A stretch of DNA of 64,000 nt. It comes from Sphingobacterium corticibacterium. Its GTDB lineage: Bacteria; Bacteroidota; Bacteroidia; Sphingobacteriales; Sphingobacteriaceae. The stretch spans positions 744,001 to 808,000 of the forward strand of contig NZ_SGIT01000001.1 in NCBI RefSeq assembly GCF_004208525.1, given 5' to 3'. Each line of letters starts with the position of its first letter. Within the stretch, counting starts at the first letter, position 1. The position numbers were made by a program, and so were the translations under genes. Shown piece after piece: positions 713 to 62,913 of the stretch. The notes below the pieces were generated by a model. The model was not told the origin of the DNA, ran no database searches, and worked only from the letters and a program-made list of their open reading frames with translations.

Positions 713-3700
713 ATGAACATCATAAAATTTGCGTTAAGGAAACCGATTGCGATTATGGTTGTCGTACTGTCGATTGCTTTCTTTTCCTATAACACCGTAA
801 AAAAAATCAACGTAGATATATTCCCCGAAGTGGAATTACCTACGATATACATCGCTATGCCCTACGGGGGATTGTCCCCTGCCTATATGGATGGGTTTAT
901 GGCGAACGAGTTCCAAAAGGTACTTTTATTCGTCAGTGGTGTAGAAAACATCGATTTCAAAAGCGTACAGGGAATGACCCTGATGAAACTGAGCTTTTAC
1001 CCTGGAACCGATATGGCGCAGGCTGCTGGAGAGGTAGCCACCTTTACCAACCGGGCAATGGGGTTTCTGCCAGCTGGAGCGGTTCCGCCTATGGTCGTCC
1101 GCTTTGACGGTAGCTCACTTCCCGTAGGACAGCTGGTTTTTGAGAGTGAACAGCGTTCGGTCAATGAATTACAGACACTTGCCATCACGCGAATACGGCC
1201 GATGTTTACCGAAATCCCTGGCATTACTTCTCCAGCTCCATTCGGAGGGAACGTCCGGACAATCGTGGTCAATATAAACCCCGAAGCCATGCAGGCAAAC
1301 GGGTTAAGTCCTGAAGAAATTACAGCCGCTATTACCAAGAACAGCCTGCCGTCGCCTGCGGGAAATATTCGCATCGGCGATAAAAACTTAATGGCTCCGA
1401 TTAACTCCATTGCCAAGAACCCCGAAGAATTTCTGAATACACCTGTAAAAACAAACGATAATAGGACTATATATGTCCGTGATGTCGCAAGTGTATTGGA
1501 CGCAGCAGACCAGACCGTAGGTTATGCAGTTGTTAACGGCAAAAGATCGGTGTACCTGCCGATTATCAAAAAGGCGGATGCCTCCACATTGGACGCCGTA
1601 GAAAACTTAAAGTCTTCTATTCCCATGCTGAAAAACCAACTGCCCGAAGACGTGGATGTCCATTATGAATTTGACCAATCGACCTACATCGAAAGGGCAC
1701 TTTCCACGCTTATCCACGAAGGAATTTTGGGTGCAGTATTTACTGGTGTGGTTATTTTACTCTTTTTGGGCGATAACCGTGGGGCAATCATCGTTGTATT
1801 GACCATTCCGATTGCGATTTTGTCAGCTGTTTCCGTTTTGCACCTTTTCGGGCAGACCATAAACATTATGACCTTGAGCGGTCTTGCCTTGTCAATTGGT
1901 ATTCTCGTCGATGAAGCCACCGTAACGATAGAGAACATACACCAGCATTTTGAAATGGGCAAGCCCAAACAGCGAGCCATTTTGGACGCTTTGCTCGAAA
2001 TATCTATCCCTAAATTGCTGATTTTGATCTGTATTCTTGCCGTACTGACCCCTGCCTTTATTATGACGGGTATTCCAAAGGATATGTTTATGCCTTTGTC
2101 TATGGCTGTGGCTTTTGCTATGATAGCTTCCTTTTTGGCTTCGCAGACCTTTGTGCCGATTTTGGCAAATTGGTTGATGAAGAACAAGCACAGCAACGAA
2201 ACCAATACGCCGAGAAAACGGGCTTTCTTTGAAAAATTTCGCGTAAACTATGCTTACCGTATGCGTAAATGGTCAACCAAAGCCTTGCCTCTTTTTGCAT
2301 TATATCTATTAGTTGCAGGAGGGATTGCCGCATTGCTGTTGAACGTCGTCGGAACAGATGTCATGCCGGTTTCCAATAACGGAGACTTTCAGTTACGCAT
2401 ACAAGCTCCGCAGGGGAGTAGGCTCGAAAAGACCGAGAAAATCGTCAGTGAAATTACCGATGAAATCCGTGGGGTTATTCCCGAAAACGGTATCAAACTG
2501 ACCTCTGCATTCGTGGGAACGCATTCGGCAGGAACGCCCATCAATCCGATATTCCTGTTTACGAGTGCTTCACACGAGGCGGTTTTGCAGGTTTCTGTCA
2601 ATCAGAAAGTGTATACGGGTTCCATAGAAGATTTGAAAGAAGAAATAAGGGTAAAATTACAAGAAAAACATCCCGATGTCGCTTTCAACTTTGAGCCAAT
2701 GGAATTGACCGAGAAGATTATGGGACAGGGTGCAATGACCCCGATTGAGGTCAAAGTCGGTGCAAGACAAATAAACGGTGCTTTTGCACACGCATCTAAG
2801 ATTGCGGAAAATTTGAAGAAAGTACCTTACCTGCGTGATGTCCGCATAGCGGAAGCGATTGCTTATCCTACATTGGAAATTGACGTAAATCGTGATCTTG
2901 CCGGACAGTTCGGACTGACCATGCAGGACGTAACCCGAAGCCTTGTAACAGCTACTTCATCTACACGATATACGGATAAAAACCTTTGGATTGACCCCAA
3001 TTCAGGATTGGTATTCCAAACGCAGGTACAGATACCGGAGGCTACGATGCAATCGGAGGAAAAACTTCGGTCAATTCCATTAAAGAAAGGAAGTCTTCGT
3101 CCGGTATTGGAAGATGTGGCAACCATTCGTAAGGTTACTTCTCCTGCACAGGTAAACCGTAAAGGCCCAAATCGATACGTTACCGTTGTAGCCAATGTGT
3201 ACGGAAAGGATTTAGGAAGTGCTTCTACAGTCGTCAAACAGGCAATTGCAGATGCAGGAGAACCACCCCGCGGCACGACGGTTTGGACAGCGGGAACATT
3301 ACAGTTATTGGAAGATACCTTGGATAGTCTTATGGCAGGTTTGGGCGTAGCCATTATTGTTATTTTCCTAATGCTTTCAGCTTATTACCAATCGTTTAAA
3401 GTGCCGTTGGTCATCCTTTCAGTATTACCCGCCGTAATTGCGGGAAGTCTAATCCTGCTCTACCTTACAGGCAGTACGCTCAACTTGCAATCCTATATGG
3501 GGATTATTATGTCGCTTGGCGTATCGGTATCAAATGCCGTGCTATTGGTCAATCAAGCCGAATTTTATCGGAAAAAAATGGCATTGAAACCCGCTAATTC
3601 GGCAAGACTTGCTGCTTCGTCACGATTAAGACCCGTTTTGATGACCGCGACAGCGATGTTTGCGGGAATGTTGCCGATGGCAATGGGTTTAGGGGACGGA

Positions 3701-38575: not shown

Positions 38576-40951
38576 ATGATTTTTCCCAAAAATGCAATAG
38601 ATAAATTAGGTTTTATTGAAATTAAAGACCTGATAAAAGATAAATGTTTGAGTGAGTCTGGAAGAGAAATGGTGGAGAAAATTCAGCCTCAAGTGAAACT
38701 TGATAATATCGATAGGTTTCTTCGTCAAACACAAGAGTTTAAGGATTTGTTGGTTAACGATGCACCGCTTCCTGTGGACCATTTGTACCCTATAAAGCCG
38801 TTAGCAGAAAAAGCCCGTGTAGAAGGTTCTTTTTTAGCAGAGGAGGAGTTTCATCGTATTTTACTTTCATTGCGTACGGTGTATGCTATTATCCGCTATT
38901 TCAACGAACGGCAAGGGCAGTATGTGCATCTGGAATTGCTTTTTGAACATCTTCCTATCGAAAAACAGATTATCCGACAGATTGAGGTGGTGATAAACGA
39001 CAGCGGGAAAATGAAAGATAATGCATCTCGTTTGTTGTTGGACTTGACGCAACAAATACTTAAAAGTGAACAGGAAGCACGTAAACGTATCGATCAGGTA
39101 TTTAAGCAGGCACAAAATAACGGTTGGACAGCAGACGGAAACTTAACGATTAGAGACGGTCGCTTGTGTATTCCTATACTCGCGGAAAACAAACGTAAAT
39201 TAAAGGGCTTTATACATGATGAATCTGCTACTGGACAAACAGCTTATATAGAGCCAGAAGAAGTTTTTCACCTTAACAATAAGGTGAGAGATTTGGTGTT
39301 TGAGCGTAGACGGGAAGTTATACGGATATTGACGGAATTAACCAGCGAATTGCGTCCGCATGTTCCGTTATTATTAGCGTATCATGGTTTATTAAGTAAA
39401 CTTGATTTTGTTCGGGCGAAAGCGCTATTTGCCATTGATATGGAGGCCGAGATGCCGGAATTATCAACGGAGGCAGATATTAACCTCGTTAATGCGCGGC
39501 ATCCGCTGTTGTTAATTAATTCGCGCAGAGAAAATCATCCGTCCGTCGTTCCCTTAAATATCAAAATAGATCGCGAAGACCGCATAATTCTAGTTTCTGG
39601 ACCAAATGCCGGCGGTAAATCGGTTTGTATGAAAACAGTTGGTTTGCTACAGCTTATGGTGCAATCGGGACTGCTCATCCCGGCGGAGCCAACCTCTAAA
39701 GTGGGGGTTTTCCGACAGATATTTGCGGATATTGGCGATGACCAATCTATCGAGAGTGACTTGAGTACCTATAGTGCGCACCTGTCAAAAATGAAGCATT
39801 TCACCGAGTTTGCAAATGCGAGAACGTTGATCCTGATTGACGAGTTTGGTACAGGGACGGATCCGTTATTTGGCGGGCCGATTGCTGAAGCGGTTTTGGA
39901 AGCGTTGAACAAAAAAGAGGTGCGTGGTGTGATAACAACGCATTACTCCAACCTTAAAGTATTTGCGAGTAATACAGCCGGATTGGAAAACGCATCTATG
40001 TTATTCGATAATGTCGCGATGCATCCGCTATATATCTTGCAGGTAGGAAAACCCGGAAGTTCATACGCTTTTGAGATAGCACAGAAAATAGGTTTGCGTA
40101 AAGAGATCTTACATGTGGCCAAAGACAAAATAGGTGCTCGTCAGAAGAAAGTGGATACGTTATTAGTGGATCTGGAGCGTGATAAAAAGGAAATATACGA
40201 CACGAAGACGGCGATCGCTATGCGAGAACGCGAGTTAGAAAAATTAAAGAACGAATACGAAAACTTGCAGGGATATCTGGAAGAAAATAAGAAACAGATT
40301 ATTCGGGCAGCGAAGGAGGAAGCTCGCCAGATTTTGAAAAATGCGAATAAACTGGTGGAGAATACGGTTGCCGAAATTAAATCCGTACAGGCGGATAAAG
40401 ATAAAACCAGGGAAATACGACGTCGTTTGCATGCCGAGGTGGATAAGCACACCGAGAAGAAACCTGTGACCAAACAAGCTGTGGCTGCACAAATGGACGA
40501 ATCCATCAAAGTAGGGGATTGGGTAAAAATTCTGGGAGCTGATACAGAAGCGCAAGTCATAGAGGTTGCGAAAGGGAACAATCTGATTTTGGCACTTGGA
40601 GAACTGCGTACGGTGGTCAAGAAAAATAAAGTGGTTAAATTGCAGGGAAAGGAAAAAGCTAATGTGGTCAAGAAGCACAAAGCTATTTCTACGGAATCGG
40701 CAGCCGATTTTCAGCCAGAACTTGATGTCAGGGGAATGCGTACAGAAGATGCTTTACGCCAGTTGGAAACCGTGCTGGATCGCGCAGTGATGATCGGTTA
40801 CCCGTCGTTGAAAATTTTGCATGGCAAAGGAGACGGTATACTCCGAAAATTTATTCGGGATTATCTGCGTAAATATAGTCACATATCCCATTTTGAAGAC
40901 GAACATGCTGATCGTGGGGGAGATGGAATTACCTACGCTTATATTCAGTAA
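38576..40951 (+). CDS. mutS2: Endonuclease MutS2 (MutS-like ATPase with Smr domain)
   Basis: MutS2 acts on recombination intermediates and, in some bacteria, on collided ribosomes. The 791 residues show the lever/clamp helices, the MutS ATPase (Walker A SGPNAGGKSVCMKT near residue 340, DIGDDQSIESDLSTYSAHL, LILIDEFGTGTDP Walker B), a long coiled coil (about 510-640), a KOW-like segment and a C-terminal Smr nuclease domain (LDVRGMRTEDALRQLE, KILHGKGDGILRK). The ATG at 38576 is preferred over an upstream in-frame TTG that would overlap the previous gene. Confidence 0.96.
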   Translation: MIFPKNAIDKLGFIEIKDLIKDKCLSESGREMVEKIQPQVKLDNIDRFLRQTQEFKDLLVNDAPLPVDHLYPIKPLAEKARVEGSFLAEEEFHRILLSLRTVYAIIRYFNERQGQYVHLELLFEHLPIEKQIIRQIEVVINDSGKMKDNASRLLLDLTQQILKSEQEARKRIDQVFKQAQNNGWTADGNLTIRDGRLCIPILAENKRKLKGFIHDESATGQTAYIEPEEVFHLNNKVRDLVFERRREVIRILTELTSELRPHVPLLLAYHGLLSKLDFVRAKALFAIDMEAEMPELSTEADINLVNARHPLLLINSRRENHPSVVPLNIKIDREDRIILVSGPNAGGKSVCMKTVGLLQLMVQSGLLIPAEPTSKVGVFRQIFADIGDDQSIESDLSTYSAHLSKMKHFTEFANARTLILIDEFGTGTDPLFGGPIAEAVLEALNKKEVRGVITTHYSNLKVFASNTAGLENASMLFDNVAMHPLYILQVGKPGSSYAFEIAQKIGLRKEILHVAKDKIGARQKKVDTLLVDLERDKKEIYDTKTAIAMRERELEKLKNEYENLQGYLEENKKQIIRAAKEEARQILKNANKLVENTVAEIKSVQADKDKTREIRRRLHAEVDKHTEKKPVTKQAVAAQMDESIKVGDWVKILGADTEAQVIEVAKGNNLILALGELRTVVKKNKVVKLQGKEKANVVKKHKAISTESAADFQPELDVRGMRTEDALRQLETVLDRAVMIGYPSLKILHGKGDGILRKFIRDYLRKYSHISHFEDEHADRGGDGITYAYIQ

Positions 40952-57685: not shown

Positions 57686-59635
57686 TTAATTATTGGGCCA
57701 CACGTTGTTATAGGGGTCCATGTCTGGATAAACATTGTCGGGATCAATAACCACACGCGTAAGCGCTTCGGTAGATTTCAGTTTAAAGCGCCAAGATGTA
57801 TTACGTTGCCATATCTCAACCGGAAGTTTTTTCCTTATTTTTTTTCCGGACACGGTGGTTGCTTCGATGACAACAGGCATGGCCATCTTTTGTAGATTAT
57901 CAATCGTTATAATAGCGCCATGTTTTGGGTCTAACCCCTCATATTCTACTGATCGGACAGCTTGATCCAATGCCCAGTTGTTTTTAAACCAACCACGCCA
58001 AAACCAAGCTAGATTTTCGCCTGTTTCATTTTCTATGGTACGAAAAAAATCATCGGGTGTAGGATGCTTGTATGCCCAATGCGCAATATACTTACGGAAT
58101 GCGCTGTCAAAACGCTCCGCACCAATTACCTCATCGCGTAACAAACGTAGGCCATAAGCAGGTTTGTAATAGGCAAGAATCCCAATATTTTTTTCTTTCA
58201 TATTTTGGGGAGAAGACATGATCGGTTCTAAATCAGGTCTGGAAAATGCCGGCGCCATACTATTACGATTTCCAAACTTTTTATGATATTCTCCCTTATT
58301 GAATTCCTCAGTCGATAAACCGTTGATAAACGTATTAAAGCCTTCATCCATCCATGCGTGAAGCCTTTCGTTGCTTCCTACAATCATTGGAAACCAGTTG
58401 TGTCCGAATTCGTGATCGGTTACGCCCCATAAGTTACCTGCTTTGGCGGTAGCGCCACAAAAAGAAATAGCCGGGTATTCCATCCCGCCGACGTTAGACG
58501 CCACATTGACAGCAACTGGGTAGGGGTATTCAAGCCATTTTTTGCTGTAATGTTCGATAGATGCCTTCGTATATTCCGTAGAACGCTCCCAAGCATTGCC
58601 ACCGTTACTTTCAGCAGGATAGGCAGAGAGGGCCAATGCAATTTTTCCACTAGGATTATTGATCCTCGCACCGTCAATAATAAAAGCTTTGGAAGAGGCC
58701 CAGGCGAAGTCATGCGCATTATCCAATTTATATTTCCAGGTTAGACGTTTCTTGTTCGGGCGTGAAGCAGCGTTGGTCACTTCTTCTGCCGATCGAATTA
58801 AGATTGTTCTTTCACTTTCAAATGCTTGTTTATATCGGGCAAGCTGCTCGGTGGTCCACACTTCTGCCGGATTAAGGAGCTCTCCACCTGCCACGACGAT
58901 GTGATCGGCAGGCGCTTCAATCTCTACGCGGTAATCTCCAAACTCCAGATAAAATTCACCCGGACCTGTATACGGTTCGGTATTCCAGCCTAAAATATCA
59001 TCATATACACATACGCGAGGATACCATTGCGCGATGGTGTATATCTTTCCATTCTTCGTGTCTAATATGCCTGTCCTGTCCGCTCCGTATTCCGGAACGG
59101 TGTATGAAAATTCCATTTCTAAGGTAACCGATTGACCGCCAGCTTTTAATACTTTAGGCAATTCCAATCGCATCCGAGTATCGATAACCTCGTAATTTGC
59201 CACTGAACCATCGGAAAAACGAAGATTTGTTAATTGAAATCCGCCATTGAAATCAGAGGCTGCCGAGCCATACCGACTATCTTGCAGCGGAATGGTCGCT
59301 TGTCCACGTGATGCCTCCTGAAAGAGGTTCTGATCCAGTTGAAACCAGAGATGTTGTAAATCATCCGGACTATTGTTGGTATAGTCGATGGTCAAATGCC
59401 CCGAAACGATATCGGTCTGTTCGTCGAGGGAAACACGGATGGTATAATCCGCTCTGTTTTGCCAGTAGGCATGTCCTGGTTTTCCACTAGCAGAACGATA
59501 GGGTGAGCCGTTTTGCGTATAAAAAATGGGATCGAAAGCTTCTGTATAGTCGTATACACTGTTCGTTTGTGCACTTACTTGGCCTATGGCCAGCATGACG
59601 GCACTCAACGAGGTACAAATTATTTTTTTAATCAT
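57686..59635 (-). CDS. M1 family zinc metallopeptidase
   Basis: A 649-residue exported aminopeptidase-type enzyme. Signal peptide ends VSAQ. An N-terminal M1 beta-sandwich leads to the catalytic domain with GGMEYP (substrate N terminus binding) and HEFGH followed 18 residues later by a glutamate (WMDEGF), completing the HEXXH-(18)-E zinc site. The C-terminal domain has the FWRGWFKNNW pattern typical of Bacteroidota members. It would trim peptides in the periplasm. The start MIKKIICTSL is preferred to a frame extension that runs into the ArsC-like gene. Confidence 0.92.
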   Translation of the reverse strand: MIKKIICTSLSAVMLAIGQVSAQTNSVYDYTEAFDPIFYTQNGSPYRSASGKPGHAYWQNRADYTIRVSLDEQTDIVSGHLTIDYTNNSPDDLQHLWFQLDQNLFQEASRGQATIPLQDSRYGSAASDFNGGFQLTNLRFSDGSVANYEVIDTRMRLELPKVLKAGGQSVTLEMEFSYTVPEYGADRTGILDTKNGKIYTIAQWYPRVCVYDDILGWNTEPYTGPGEFYLEFGDYRVEIEAPADHIVVAGGELLNPAEVWTTEQLARYKQAFESERTILIRSAEEVTNAASRPNKKRLTWKYKLDNAHDFAWASSKAFIIDGARINNPSGKIALALSAYPAESNGGNAWERSTEYTKASIEHYSKKWLEYPYPVAVNVASNVGGMEYPAISFCGATAKAGNLWGVTDHEFGHNWFPMIVGSNERLHAWMDEGFNTFINGLSTEEFNKGEYHKKFGNRNSMAPAFSRPDLEPIMSSPQNMKEKNIGILAYYKPAYGLRLLRDEVIGAERFDSAFRKYIAHWAYKHPTPDDFFRTIENETGENLAWFWRGWFKNNWALDQAVRSVEYEGLDPKHGAIITIDNLQKMAMPVVIEATTVSGKKIRKKLPVEIWQRNTSWRFKLKSTEALTRVVIDPDNVYPDMDPYNNVWPNN

Positions 59636-59639
59636 AGCA

Positions 59640-59990
59640 CTATGTAAGTTTGTCTTGGTATTCCTCCTCGTCGAAACCAAGTATAATCCCTTTAGGTGAT
59701 TCTATTAAGGGTCTCTTAATCATACTATTGTTTTTTAACAGTACGTGGTTGGCAGTAGCTGCATCCACGACTTCCGCTTGCTCTTCTGCGGACAGCTTTC
59801 GCCAGGTTGTTCCTTTTTTATTGACCAAGGATTCCCAAGATACTTTCTTTTCCCATCCCGTGAGCTGCTCCAAGGTTGCAGGCTCCTTTTTGTAGTCATG
59901 AAACGTATAAGAAATGTTGTTGTCATCCAGCCAGGTCAAGGCTTTTTTTACTGTGTTGCAATTCTTGATTCCGTATACCTGTAATGCCAT
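59640..59990 (-). CDS. ArsC/Spx-family thioredoxin-fold protein (YffB-like)
   Basis: A 116-residue protein of the arsenate reductase-related fold: QVYGIKNCNTVKKALTWLDDNNISYTFHDYKK and NNSMIKRPLIESPKGIILGFDEEEYQ. It keeps Cys11 but lacks the CXXC of Spx, as in YffB. It binds glutathione-like thiols or acts as a disulfide-related regulator; the true function is not known. Its ORF ends four bases before the M1 gene start, so cotranscription is likely. A TATCTTTA box at 60020-60027 is its probable promoter. Confidence 0.85.
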   Translation of the reverse strand: MALQVYGIKNCNTVKKALTWLDDNNISYTFHDYKKEPATLEQLTGWEKKVSWESLVNKKGTTWRKLSAEEQAEVVDAATANHVLLKNNSMIKRPLIESPKGIILGFDEEEYQDKLT

Positions 59991-60035
59991 TAGCTATTCT
60001 TTTAAATTCGTTGATGTGATAAAGATATTAATATT

Positions 60036-60500
60036 ATTAAAAATTAGTGGTGTTCTTTTCCGTTATTGTGTTGTTTCGTTTGCTATTTGTGCAGCAACGC
60101 GAATATATTGTGATACAAAACAAATTCCTTGTCCGGCTTTTTTGTTTTGTTATCCGGTGGTTTTCTTTCTCCGGGCAACAACATAAGTTTATCGTGGTAT
60201 AAAACAAATTCCTTGCCCGACTTTTTTGTTTTGTTGCCCGATGGTTTTCTTTCTCCGGGCAATAGCACAAGCTTATCGTGACATAAAACAAACTCCTTGC
60301 CCGACTTTTTTGTTTTGTTGCCCGATGTTCTTCTTTCGTAGGACAATAGCACAAGCTTATCGTGACATAAAACAAATTCCTTGCACGGCTTTTTTGTTTT
60401 GTTGCCCAATGTTTTTCTTTCTCAGGACAACAACGCAAGTTTATTGCCCCATTCTTTTGTTTTGTTGGACAACTTTTTTGCAAACTTGTCCGTTTTTTAT
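60036..60500. repeat. 84-base tandem repeat array
   Basis: Four contiguous units start at 60120, 60204, 60288 and 60372, each 84 bases long, with degenerate partial copies on both sides. Neighbouring units are about 90 percent identical. Each holds the sequence TTGCCCGA, a TTTTTTGTTTTG tract, and in unit 2 a perfect hairpin TTGCCCG / CGGGCAA (60234-60240 with 60256-60262). Because 84 is a multiple of three and the unit lacks stops in several frames, long open frames arise on both strands; I do not consider them genes. The array fills part of the 820-base space between divergent arsC-like and fba genes. Confidence 0.9.
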
Positions 60501-60598
60501 TTTCTGATTCCTTTGTTACTCAGGAACTAAAAACACCATTTAAACATATTTAAGTGCGGTTTTTTGAAGGGAATAGCGTTGAAAAAAACGTCTTCCAT

Positions 60599-60658
60599 GG
60601 GGTAATATCCTGCCAAAAAGATTTTTAAGGTTTCCTAATTTTGGCGGGATTTTATCCC
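60599..60658. other. Long imperfect hairpin between the array and fba
   Basis: 20-base arms (60599-60618, ending CCTGCCAAAA, and 60639-60658, beginning TTTTGGCGGG) pair with only one mismatch and two G-T pairs, around a 20-base loop. It is 90 bases upstream of the fba promoter. Sequence 60501-60598 and 60659-60747 shows nothing else recognisable. Confidence 0.65.
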
Positions 60659-60747
60659 AGTCGTTTAAAATAATTATCCTATATTAACGCCAGATGCCTG
60701 GTTATCAACATACGTTATACCGGGTGCTGTGTATTTAATACACTAAG

Positions 60748-60778
60748 TTGTAAAAAACAAAAAAACTCCCTACCTTTA
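60748..60778 (+). promoter_or_regulatory. fba promoter
   Basis: TTG (60748-60750) with a 20-base spacer and TACCTTTA (60771-60778, one mismatch at the last base), 32 bases before the fba ATG. Confidence 0.55.
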
Positions 60779-60810
60779 GTCGCAAATAACACAAGTAATA
60801 AAATAAAAAT

Positions 60811-61890
60811 ATGAGCCTAAAAGATTTTAAGGGTGTTTTAACCGGCGATCAAGTACAAGAACTATTTGAAATAGCTAAAGAACATAAGTTTGCATTACCT
60901 GCGGTCAACGTGATCGGAACAAATTCGATCAACGCTGTTTTGGAAACAGCGAAGGCGGTGAACTCACCGGTCATTATTCAATTATCCAATGGTGGAGCTC
61001 AGTTCTATGCTGGGAAATCATTGAATAACGACGGTTTGCAAGCCTGTATTTTGGGAGCTGTATCAGCTGCACAGCACGTACATTTGTTAGCGGAACATTA
61101 TGGAGTAGCTGTTATATTACATACTGACCATGCTGCCAAAAAATTGTTGCCATGGATTGACGGTCTTTTGGATGCGGGCGAAAAATTCTTCGCACAACAC
61201 GGAAAACCGTTGTTCTCTTCGCATATGTTAGATTTATCAGAGGAGCCAATTGAAGAGAATATAGAGATCTCCAGAAAATATTTAGAGCGCATGAAGCCGC
61301 TTGGTATGACGGTTGAAATTGAATTAGGTGTAACAGGCGGCGAGGAAGACGGTGTAGATAATACGGATGTAGATAGCTCAAAATTGTATACACAGCCGGA
61401 AGAAGTAGCTTATGCATATGAAGAGCTATCCAAAGTTTCCGATAAATTTACGGTAGCAGCGGCATTTGGTAATGTACATGGGGTATACAAGCCTGGTAAT
61501 GTGAAATTGCAACCGGTTATTTTACATAACTCACAAGAATATATCCGGGAGAAATTTAATTTATCTGCTGAGAAACCGGTAAATTTTGTTTTCCACGGTG
61601 GTTCTGGATCTTCGCCAGAAGAAATTGCAGAAGCGATTTCCTACGGCGCTATCAAAATGAATATTGATACAGACATGCAATGGGCATTCTGGGATGGTAT
61701 TCGCGCTTATGAAGCAAAAAATCGGGATTATTTGCAAGCCCAGATAGGGAACCCGGAAGGTGCGGATTCTCCAAATAAAAAATATTATGATCCGCGGGTT
61801 TGGCTGCGTAAAGGTGAAGAAACGTTTGTAGAACGTTTAAAACAAGCCTTCAGCGAATTAAACGCTATTGATGTAAATACGAAATTGTAA
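60811..61890 (+). CDS. Fructose-bisphosphate aldolase, class II
   Basis: A zinc-dependent aldolase of 359 residues that splits fructose 1,6-bisphosphate in glycolysis and runs backward in gluconeogenesis. Zinc ligands are visible in LHTDHAAKK, in FGNVHGVYKPGNVKL and in VFHGGSGSS; the DLSEEPIEENIE segment and the length match the E. coli FbaA type. Its upstream region is the long non-coding stretch with the repeat array. A strong terminator follows. Confidence 0.97.
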   Translation: MSLKDFKGVLTGDQVQELFEIAKEHKFALPAVNVIGTNSINAVLETAKAVNSPVIIQLSNGGAQFYAGKSLNNDGLQACILGAVSAAQHVHLLAEHYGVAVILHTDHAAKKLLPWIDGLLDAGEKFFAQHGKPLFSSHMLDLSEEPIEENIEISRKYLERMKPLGMTVEIELGVTGGEEDGVDNTDVDSSKLYTQPEEVAYAYEELSKVSDKFTVAAAFGNVHGVYKPGNVKLQPVILHNSQEYIREKFNLSAEKPVNFVFHGGSGSSPEEIAEAISYGAIKMNIDTDMQWAFWDGIRAYEAKNRDYLQAQIGNPEGADSPNKKYYDPRVWLRKGEETFVERLKQAFSELNAIDVNTKL

Positions 61891-62028: not shown

Positions 62029-62913
62029 ATGATGAATAAGCAACGGTTTTTAAGTTTTTTGGAGTTTGAGAAGCGTTATTCCTCCCATACCATTTTGGCT
62101 TATGCGTTGGAAATAGATCGTTTTCTCCACTTTCTATCAACCGAAGAAATCGTTTTTGAAGAGGTAGACTATCGGGTTATTCGACATTATTTGGCGGTAA
62201 TGAAAGAGAACGGTAGACAAGCTTCTAGTATTAACCGATCTATATCGTCCTTGCGTTCTTTTTATAAGTTTCTAGTCAGGGAAGGCGTTGTAACTTCAAG
62301 CCCTATGCAGTTGGTGCACGCACTTAAAACACCCCGGAAATTACCTGTGGTAGTCGAGCAGGAAAAAATAGTCGAATTGTTAGATAGGGGGGCAATGGAT
62401 TCGGAAAGCTTTGAGGAAGCACGTGACTTTATTATTTTAGAGTTATTGTTTGGCACGGGTATAAGACTTTCGGAATTGCTTGCGATTCAAGAACGCGATA
62501 TTGATACCTATAATCGGAGGATACGCATATTTGGAAAGCGGGGTAAAGAAAGGTTAGTGCCTGTACACCAAACACTGTTGGAAGAAATCAGACGCTATTT
62601 AATATTGAAATATGCACAAGATTTTAAAAACAAATCAACCTATTTAATCGTTACCAAAGAAGGAAAGCAGGCTTATCGTTCCTTGATTTATCGGACAGTA
62701 CGGCAATATCTAGGGCGTATTACCTCTCAGCAGAAAAAAAGTCCGCATGTATTACGACATACCTTTGCTACGACACTTTTGAATAATGGAGCGGATTTAA
62801 ATGCCATCAAGGAATTACTGGGACACGCTGGTTTAGCGGCAACACAAGTTTATACGCATAACTCTGTAGAAAGATTAAAATCTATTTATAAACAAGCCCA
62901 TCCAAAGGCTTAA
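62029..62913 (+). CDS. Tyrosine recombinase XerC/XerD-like
   Basis: A 294-residue site-specific recombinase with an N-terminal SAM-like core-binding domain and a C-terminal catalytic domain containing the R-K-H-R-H-Y set: GTGIRLSEL (Arg), GKRGKERLVPV (Lys), SPHVLRHTFATTLL (His, Arg), LGHAGLAATQVYTH (His, Tyr). Size and lack of extra domains indicate a chromosomal Xer enzyme acting at dif, not a phage integrase. ATG codons at 62029 and 62032 are both possible. hpf follows after 15 bases. Confidence 0.93.
   Translation: MMNKQRFLSFLEFEKRYSSHTILAYALEIDRFLHFLSTEEIVFEEVDYRVIRHYLAVMKENGRQASSINRSISSLRSFYKFLVREGVVTSSPMQLVHALKTPRKLPVVVEQEKIVELLDRGAMDSESFEEARDFIILELLFGTGIRLSELLAIQERDIDTYNRRIRIFGKRGKERLVPVHQTLLEEIRRYLILKYAQDFKNKSTYLIVTKEGKQAYRSLIYRTVRQYLGRITSQQKKSPHVLRHTFATTLLNNGADLNAIKELLGHAGLAATQVYTHNSVERLKSIYKQAHPKA

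Follow-up and report, generated by a model that had tools for sequence, protein, structure and literature searches.

Structure of the array between arsC and fba

The 64-kb window, by which we mean the whole 64,000-nucleotide stretch of DNA analysed here, contains a tandem array situated between two divergent genes, as a sequence-only reading of the window had described: an ArsC/Spx-family gene on the minus strand and the class II fructose-bisphosphate aldolase gene fba on the plus strand (Table 1). Tandem Repeats Finder places an 84-bp tandem repeat at 60106-60444, with 4.0 copies, 87% matches, and a score of 461, and an ungapped repeat comparison finds five places at an exact 84-bp spacing between 60022 and 60525, the outermost being degraded; the 84-base array claimed in that reading is real, together with its degraded end copies. 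The top lags in the autocorrelation of the array (420 bp) are 84, 21, 63, and 105; therefore, the 84-bp unit consists of four 21-bp blocks (84 = 4 × 21). This 21-bp phase extends as far as about 60507, and the units of the array include the TTGCCCGA block. The units are contiguous at both 84 and 21 bp without unique spacers, in agreement with the earlier view that this is not a CRISPR array.

We surveyed 21-bp arrays across the window, upstream of a gene family named B (described below), at the palindrome places, and upstream of fba, using a period score that is a statistic devised for this analysis. The window array has a 21-bp-period score of 17.5, the sole strong signal across the whole 64 kb. 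The next-best 21-bp periodicities in the window, 6.2 at 40081 and 5.8 at 3331, are possibly heptad-repeat coding sequences.

Each of the four best 84-bp units has a weak fold (z −1.64, −2.87, −0.30, and −1.11), including unit 2, where the hairpin noted earlier is indeed present. The palindrome beyond the hinge, just past the coordinates given in the earlier reading, folds more strongly than the units, with z −4.17 and −3.89 on its two strands. Five neighbour genes were scanned, those for the ArsC-family protein, fba, an aminopeptidase-like protein, a XerC/D-like protein, and HPF. The XerC/XerD-like recombinase gene is located at 62029-62913, ~1.4 kb downstream of the palindrome, and is followed by the HPF gene; this stretch looks like an ordinary chromosomal neighbourhood.

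Table 1. Coordinates of the array and its neighbours in the window.
Feature	Coordinates	Strand	Remarks
21-bp-phased tandem array, orphan copy	60055..60507	+	~21 units of 21 bp; higher-order 84 bp; left edge approximate
Four best 84-bp units (starts 60120, 60204, 60288, 60372)	60120..60455	+	Repeat finding
Hinge, AAAAAC ... TTTAAA ... TTTAA ... GTTTTTT	60508..60597	+	Aligned with 18 other copies
Palindrome, arms ~20 bp, 17/20 Watson-Crick pairs, inner GCCAAAAAGATTTTT...ATTTTGGC	60598..60659	.	Alignment, folding
ArsC/Spx-family protein gene, neighbour	59640..59990	-	Transcribed away from array
Class II fructose-bisphosphate aldolase (fba), neighbour	60811..61890	+	Not the array's usual partner

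A composite unit of array, hinge, and palindrome

When the own genome was searched with the element as DNA, its final 47 bases alone recurred, once, at C1:690371, and the array unit sequence has no match elsewhere by DNA search. Comparison of C1:690371 and more distant matches indicates a composite unit, consisting of the array, the hinge, and the palindrome. In each of the 19 copies first aligned, the 420 bp preceding the hinge have a top lag divisible by 21. In the same 19 copies, both sides of the 20-bp palindrome stem have changed at 9 of the 20 pairs while the stem is kept, and 95.8% of the stem cells are paired, compared with 89.3% in shuffled and 32-56% in slid versions. A search of the genomes of relatives with a covariance model of the hinge and palindrome revealed that the composite unit recurs in 31 of the 93 genus genomes (E 0.01), frequently in several copies each; among 295 class genomes, under stricter filters, the own genome was the sole match. 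A mobile repeat such as a MITE or REP was rejected, because the 47-bp end was found only once more in the genome and the array sequences differ by locus.

Eighty places of the unit were taken with their flanks for neighbour and array analysis. An array with a score of at least 5 exists at 29 of the 30 palindrome places with a gene of family B and at 34 of the 43 without B, where the places lacking an array are slightly overcounted, as the strand of L114 was miscalled (the array on its other side is L179) and perhaps that of L127 likewise. Among the orphans, no linked decay of array and palindrome was observed, the palindromes being equally good with or without an array. At the seven places where the palindrome precedes an HU-HIG gene, no array was found. 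These array-less palindromes (L134, L140, L143, L144, L147, L148, and L152) are located 73-79 bp before genes of 127-aa HU-HIG (PF18291) DNA-binding proteins, one of the seven being assigned by a scan and the others by similarity. Three B loci or palindromes, L194, L195, and L127, show a strong lag of 104 instead of 105, and L107 (G110) contains a strong 69-bp tandem repeat downstream of the palindrome (z 31.8), which is not a multiple of 21.

Gene family B and its cassette

The first gene past the palindrome belongs to family B (~205 aa) in 30 of the 80 places, and the loci with B come from Sphingobacterium, Parapedobacter, and one Sphingobacteriaceae bacterium. The B protein is basic, with a median pI of 9.1. 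One member scanned against NCBIfam, PHROGs, and PADLOC had no match; in Pfam, fn3-type entries were the only matches for 39 members, and these were weak. In the AlphaFold2 model of B (pLDDT 87.8), residues 13-100 form a four-helix domain and the C-terminal half is an fn3 domain; for the helical half, the PDB matches listed include no close one. Genome searches, which covered one genome per species, found B in 40 of 251 family genomes, 38 of 295 class genomes, and 6 of 395 phylum-sample genomes, two of them outside the class, and the own genome has 12 B matches (12 of 16 candidates scored). One B protein searched against plasmid and phage collections was not found at E 1e-4. A phage origin was rejected because of this absence and because the window element has no DNA match to phages.

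In 42 of the 60 Sphingobacterium/Parapedobacter B loci, an AraC-type (HTH_18) gene with the same orientation is situated upstream of the array, and the upstream gene is of the HTH_18 AraC type in both loci scanned by profile. D2, a gene for an acidic coiled-coil protein (median pI 4.7 over 45 ORFs, two of which are non-D2 proteins), lies downstream of B in 45 of the 60 loci, and 41 loci possess both the AraC-type gene and D2. Towards the HTH at its C terminus, the AraC-type gene of L115 (own genome, C7:178200-181400) diverges from that of S. micropteri L119 in a way that resembles a frameshift. Among the B genes without an AraC-type gene, L040 has a 727-aa kinase-like protein and L044 a short-chain dehydrogenase upstream, and a 727-aa protein of the L040 kind is found downstream of B in L215.

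The palindrome stands before B in 40 of the 60 named loci in the scan also used for the wobble test given below, and a −7 box, TAnnTTTG, precedes B in 36 of the 60. Each of these 36 loci shows a C at −25 and −24 from TAnnTTTG; these bases belong to the palindrome foot and lie where the −33 box would be. An inverted repeat scoring at least 12 precedes B in only 2 of the 29 class loci.

The 21-bp step upstream of B across the phylum

Periods of 11-30 were compared upstream of 60 of the 61 named genus B loci, leaving out L271, a B fragment of 24 residues. The top period was 21 in 58 of the 60, with L264 and L265 as exceptions; the median 21-score was 15.0, and the other periods reached at most 2.4, except the harmonics 14 (6.8) and 28 (3.1). 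The score was at least 6 in 55 of the 60 loci (315-bp windows), and the arrays have a median length of 25 units, with a 10-90% range of 17-31 (58 loci). The unit sequences differ by locus, for example CCAGACGGGAAAAGGTAAAAC at L145 and ATGAAGCTGTTTTTGTAAAAG at L118. Thirteen of 15 further genus loci also score at least 6, and at 21 bp so do 18 of the 22 loci from other genera of the family; of the latter group, L205 carries a 22-bp array with a score of 27.3, and in L181, L201 (5.7), and L208, the array is absent or weak. The B genes L186 and L210 have no clear array.

The class sample comprised the best B match, one locus per genome, from 29 of the 38 genomes with a match. Two of these loci, L301 and L307, start at the end of a contig and were dropped, leaving 27 testable loci from 12 families outside the own family. 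A 21-bp array was found at 21 of the 27, with scores of 6.0-56.6, while L316 and L327 have 20-bp arrays and L322 a 22-bp array. L321, L324, and L326 have no array, L324 and L326 scoring 4.6-5.0 and being counted as none after inspection. Outside the class, arrays exist at all three B genes tested, with scores of 12.6, 17.0, and 29.5; two entries of the phylum-level set, L332 and L334, coincide with L115 and L117. Since the arrays stand before B across the family, class, and phylum and their units differ, the two-turn spacing is kept and the sequence is not.

Two controls were used. Upstream of fba, a score of at least 5 was reached in 2 of 50 genomes, exactly the two that carry the element. 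The region downstream of B was a less clear-cut control: the maxima there were 2.0-8.0, equal to or above the upstream score in 4 of 60 loci (L213, L243, L264, and L265); such high downstream scores are perhaps due to D2, which codes for long helices or heptads.

The window copy as an orphan

Of 50 genomes, two carry the element at the arsC-fba locus, namely the own genome and G034. In the relative G031, whose fba protein shows 99% identity, a plain gap of 237 bp separates the two genes, and G014 keeps, by eye, the left end and the right flank of the G034 version, with the middle gone. The window and G034 arrays look unlike by eye, yet they share some units (0.13-0.15 versus 0.02-0.05 when shuffled), and to about the same degree the window array shares units with L057, the orphan at the parC locus (0.18 versus 0.04-0.06). 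Taken together, the restriction to 2 of 50 genomes, the plain gap, the deletion remnant, and the shared units point to an old orphan that seems to have been lost repeatedly, and we see no sign that fba needs the array.

We found no credible remnant of B or of the AraC-type gene beside the window array, in a search that detected the positive control L133/L271. This control, an orphan of S. wenxiniae, retains a B remnant of 27 codons, showing one route by which orphans arise. Some orphan arrays share units with the arrays of AraC-type loci from their own genome or clade: L042 with L043, both from G020 (0.23 versus 0.03-0.05 shuffled), and L052 (G034) with L053, L048, and L131 (0.17-0.22 versus 0.02-0.07). 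Unit sharing within a genome is above that of unrelated pairs (p 0.003), but not above that of orthologous loci (p 0.94).

What the step could serve

A translated repeat peptide, which the earlier reading had kept in play, would fit several features: both 84 and 21 are divisible by three, one minus frame of the four-unit stretch is stop-free, and several arrays contain long, spurious-looking open frames. However, 59 arrays contain 23 stop-free frames, compared with the 19.7 expected from column shuffles, and steps of 20 and 22 bp would break the frame, so that coding is not supported; we rejected this reading and give it next to no credence. A curved-DNA element, in which the bend alone matters and the two-turn repeats add up, would account for a fixed period with free sequence. 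The bend computed with a wedge table is indeed higher than that of mononucleotide shuffles (mean z 1.78, 80 arrays). Compared with period-preserving shuffles, there is no clear excess (mean z 0.50, p 0.08): 13 of the 80 arrays exceed a z of 2, and the array of the window lies below these shuffles (z −1.16). Curvature was rejected on this ground and is very improbable as the function of the array. It is a little less implausible, though still unlikely, that the array is an RNA in the style of type III toxin-antitoxin systems, transcribed and ended by the palindrome, with the repeat RNA binding the basic protein B and the orphans being solitary RNAs. Such an RNA agrees with the order of repeats, hairpin, and ~200-aa gene in the genus loci, with array sequences that differ among the B copies, and with a basic B followed by an acidic D2. 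Against it, no TAnnTTTG promoter peak reads into the array in 80 loci. The mismatches in 94 distinct palindromes from 140 segments are 39 G.T and 49 A.C; with as many A.C as G.T, neither strand is favoured as RNA, and the symmetry may also be kept by template switching within the palindrome. Moreover, the C-terminal half of B is an fn3 domain and its helical half lacks a close PDB relative among the matches listed, inverted repeats are rare before B in the class, and a step of 20-22 has no known RNA reason. A structured RNA, another of the readings offered at the outset, found no support and was rejected: Rfam 15 gave over 59500-61000 a single sub-threshold match of 14 bits against a gathering threshold of 290, the units fold weakly, and the palindrome shows no wobble bias.

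A local minisatellite, in which replication or repair near B genes repeatedly makes functionless 21-bp tandem copies of any sequence present there, is somewhat harder to dismiss, although we regard it as improbable. It is consistent with array sequences that vary by locus, with the fba copy missing from 48 of the 50 genomes, and with the deletion remnants in G014. Against it, the 20-22 bp step persists phylum-wide upstream of one gene family, the period survives in arrays with diverged units, and the conserved columns cluster in one ~8-column block per unit (83 arrays, mean z 0.94, p 3e-7), although the clustering is not significant in the window array alone (z 0.65). A private minisatellite is refuted in the wider sense, since arrays of the same build precede one gene family throughout the phylum, although the window unit sequence itself is unmatched elsewhere by DNA search. 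One conserved block per unit is what is expected of a binding site. Among the readings offered at the outset, a protein-binding array is thus the best fit, as the two-turn step is kept, the sequence is free, and 20- and 22-bp versions occur; we infer a control region at the DNA level, where a protein would sit at every second turn and always on the same face of the helix.

A candidate reader of the array

The distance between array units was compared with protein distances in 40 of the 42 loci with an AraC-type gene, L219 and L253 being left out for their split frames. It correlates with the AraC distance at r 0.45 for the N-terminal part, 0.41 for HTH1, and 0.35 for HTH2, versus 0.29 for the B distance, which adds nothing when all AraC parts are given (partial r −0.12). 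Among the 48 closest pairs, in contrast, the B distance correlates best (0.575 versus 0.27-0.38 for the AraC parts). HTH1 was therefore rejected as the specificity determinant, being no better than the rest of the AraC-type protein, with B the best among the closest pairs. The AraC-type gene is absent at 18 of the 60 genus loci, and its profile has no match in the 29 class loci (left flanks of at most 1.5 kb); hence, it cannot be the universal reader. No common upstream gene was found within 1.5 kb in the class loci, and no AraC-type gene stands beside the window array. Judged from these comparisons of sequence, the AraC-type protein is a candidate reader in Sphingobacterium and Parapedobacter, not a universal one.

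Proposed model

We tentatively favour, at slightly less than even chances, a helically phased protein-binding array that controls B. The array would be a control region on the DNA with roughly 17-31 head-to-tail sites (median 25), one per 21 bp and rarely per 20 or 22, and the two-turn step would set all bound proteins on one face of the DNA. A cognate DNA-binding protein would bind the array cooperatively and switch gene B; in Sphingobacterium and Parapedobacter, the AraC-type protein would be the most likely binder. At many loci of these two genera, the foot of the palindrome replaces the −33 box of the B promoter. The orphan in the window would titrate or answer the same factor, or be a decaying relic.

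A wider form of this model, which is possible but clearly more doubtful, is a phylum-wide system of addressing. In such a system, B copies in Bacteroidota would each carry an array of some 17-31 sites whose private sequence is recognised by a cognate factor evolving along with it, the spacing being conserved and the sequence serving as a variable address, and the orphans would be extra addresses or sinks. The occurrence of arrays before most tested B copies suggests an undescribed way to mark or control these genes.

Comparison with known systems

The half-sites of araI are spaced by ~21 bp, and known AraC-type operators have few half-sites. The arrays resemble such operators in that an AraC-type gene adjoins them in 42 of the 60 genus loci and that the length of a unit would fit one two-HTH domain; the class arrays differ, without a profile match to an AraC-type gene in their loci. 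Iteron arrays of plasmid origins also consist of direct repeats of about two turns, whereas the B arrays are situated on chromosomal contigs, no Rep gene is found among the neighbours tested, and B is absent from the plasmid collection. CRISPR arrays are likewise intergenic repeat arrays that are different at each locus, but the window array has no spacers, and no cas genes occur among its five neighbours tested. Type III toxin-antitoxin loci such as ToxIN and CptIN share with the genus loci the tandem repeats, a hairpin, and a ~200-aa gene, but the B arrays have units of 20-22 bp in many more copies, and B has an fn3 domain. PHROGs, PADLOC, and NCBIfam gave no match and Pfam only weak fn3 for B, and the model of four helices plus fn3 does not present B as a ToxN/CptN/TenpN endoribonuclease.

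A documented likeness in geometry is with the ptx and fha promoters, where BvgA dimers bind every 22 bp, or two turns, along the same face of the DNA, and the last dimer adjoins the −35 region (PMC7250471). Both systems share a step of two helical turns and sites on one face, the face being a prediction for B. The BvgA promoters have six and three sites and one regulator, whereas the B arrays have ~17-31 units, a sequence of their own at each locus, a tie to one gene family phylum-wide, and predicted binding. In the literature searched, which covers a minority of subscription journals, no description of B-linked arrays was found. If a known regulator binds, the mechanism of the array itself would be of a known kind. 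The array comes with a multi-copy gene family that is unnamed in four protein-family libraries (weak fn3-type matches only in Pfam), and the link between array and B makes it testable what reads the arrays and why one genome keeps up to a dozen versions. A spacing kept throughout the phylum while the sequence is given up points to a geometric rule for proteins or structures sitting on DNA, and what is new compared with these systems is the combination of a fixed period, a free sequence, and a phylum-wide tie to one gene family.
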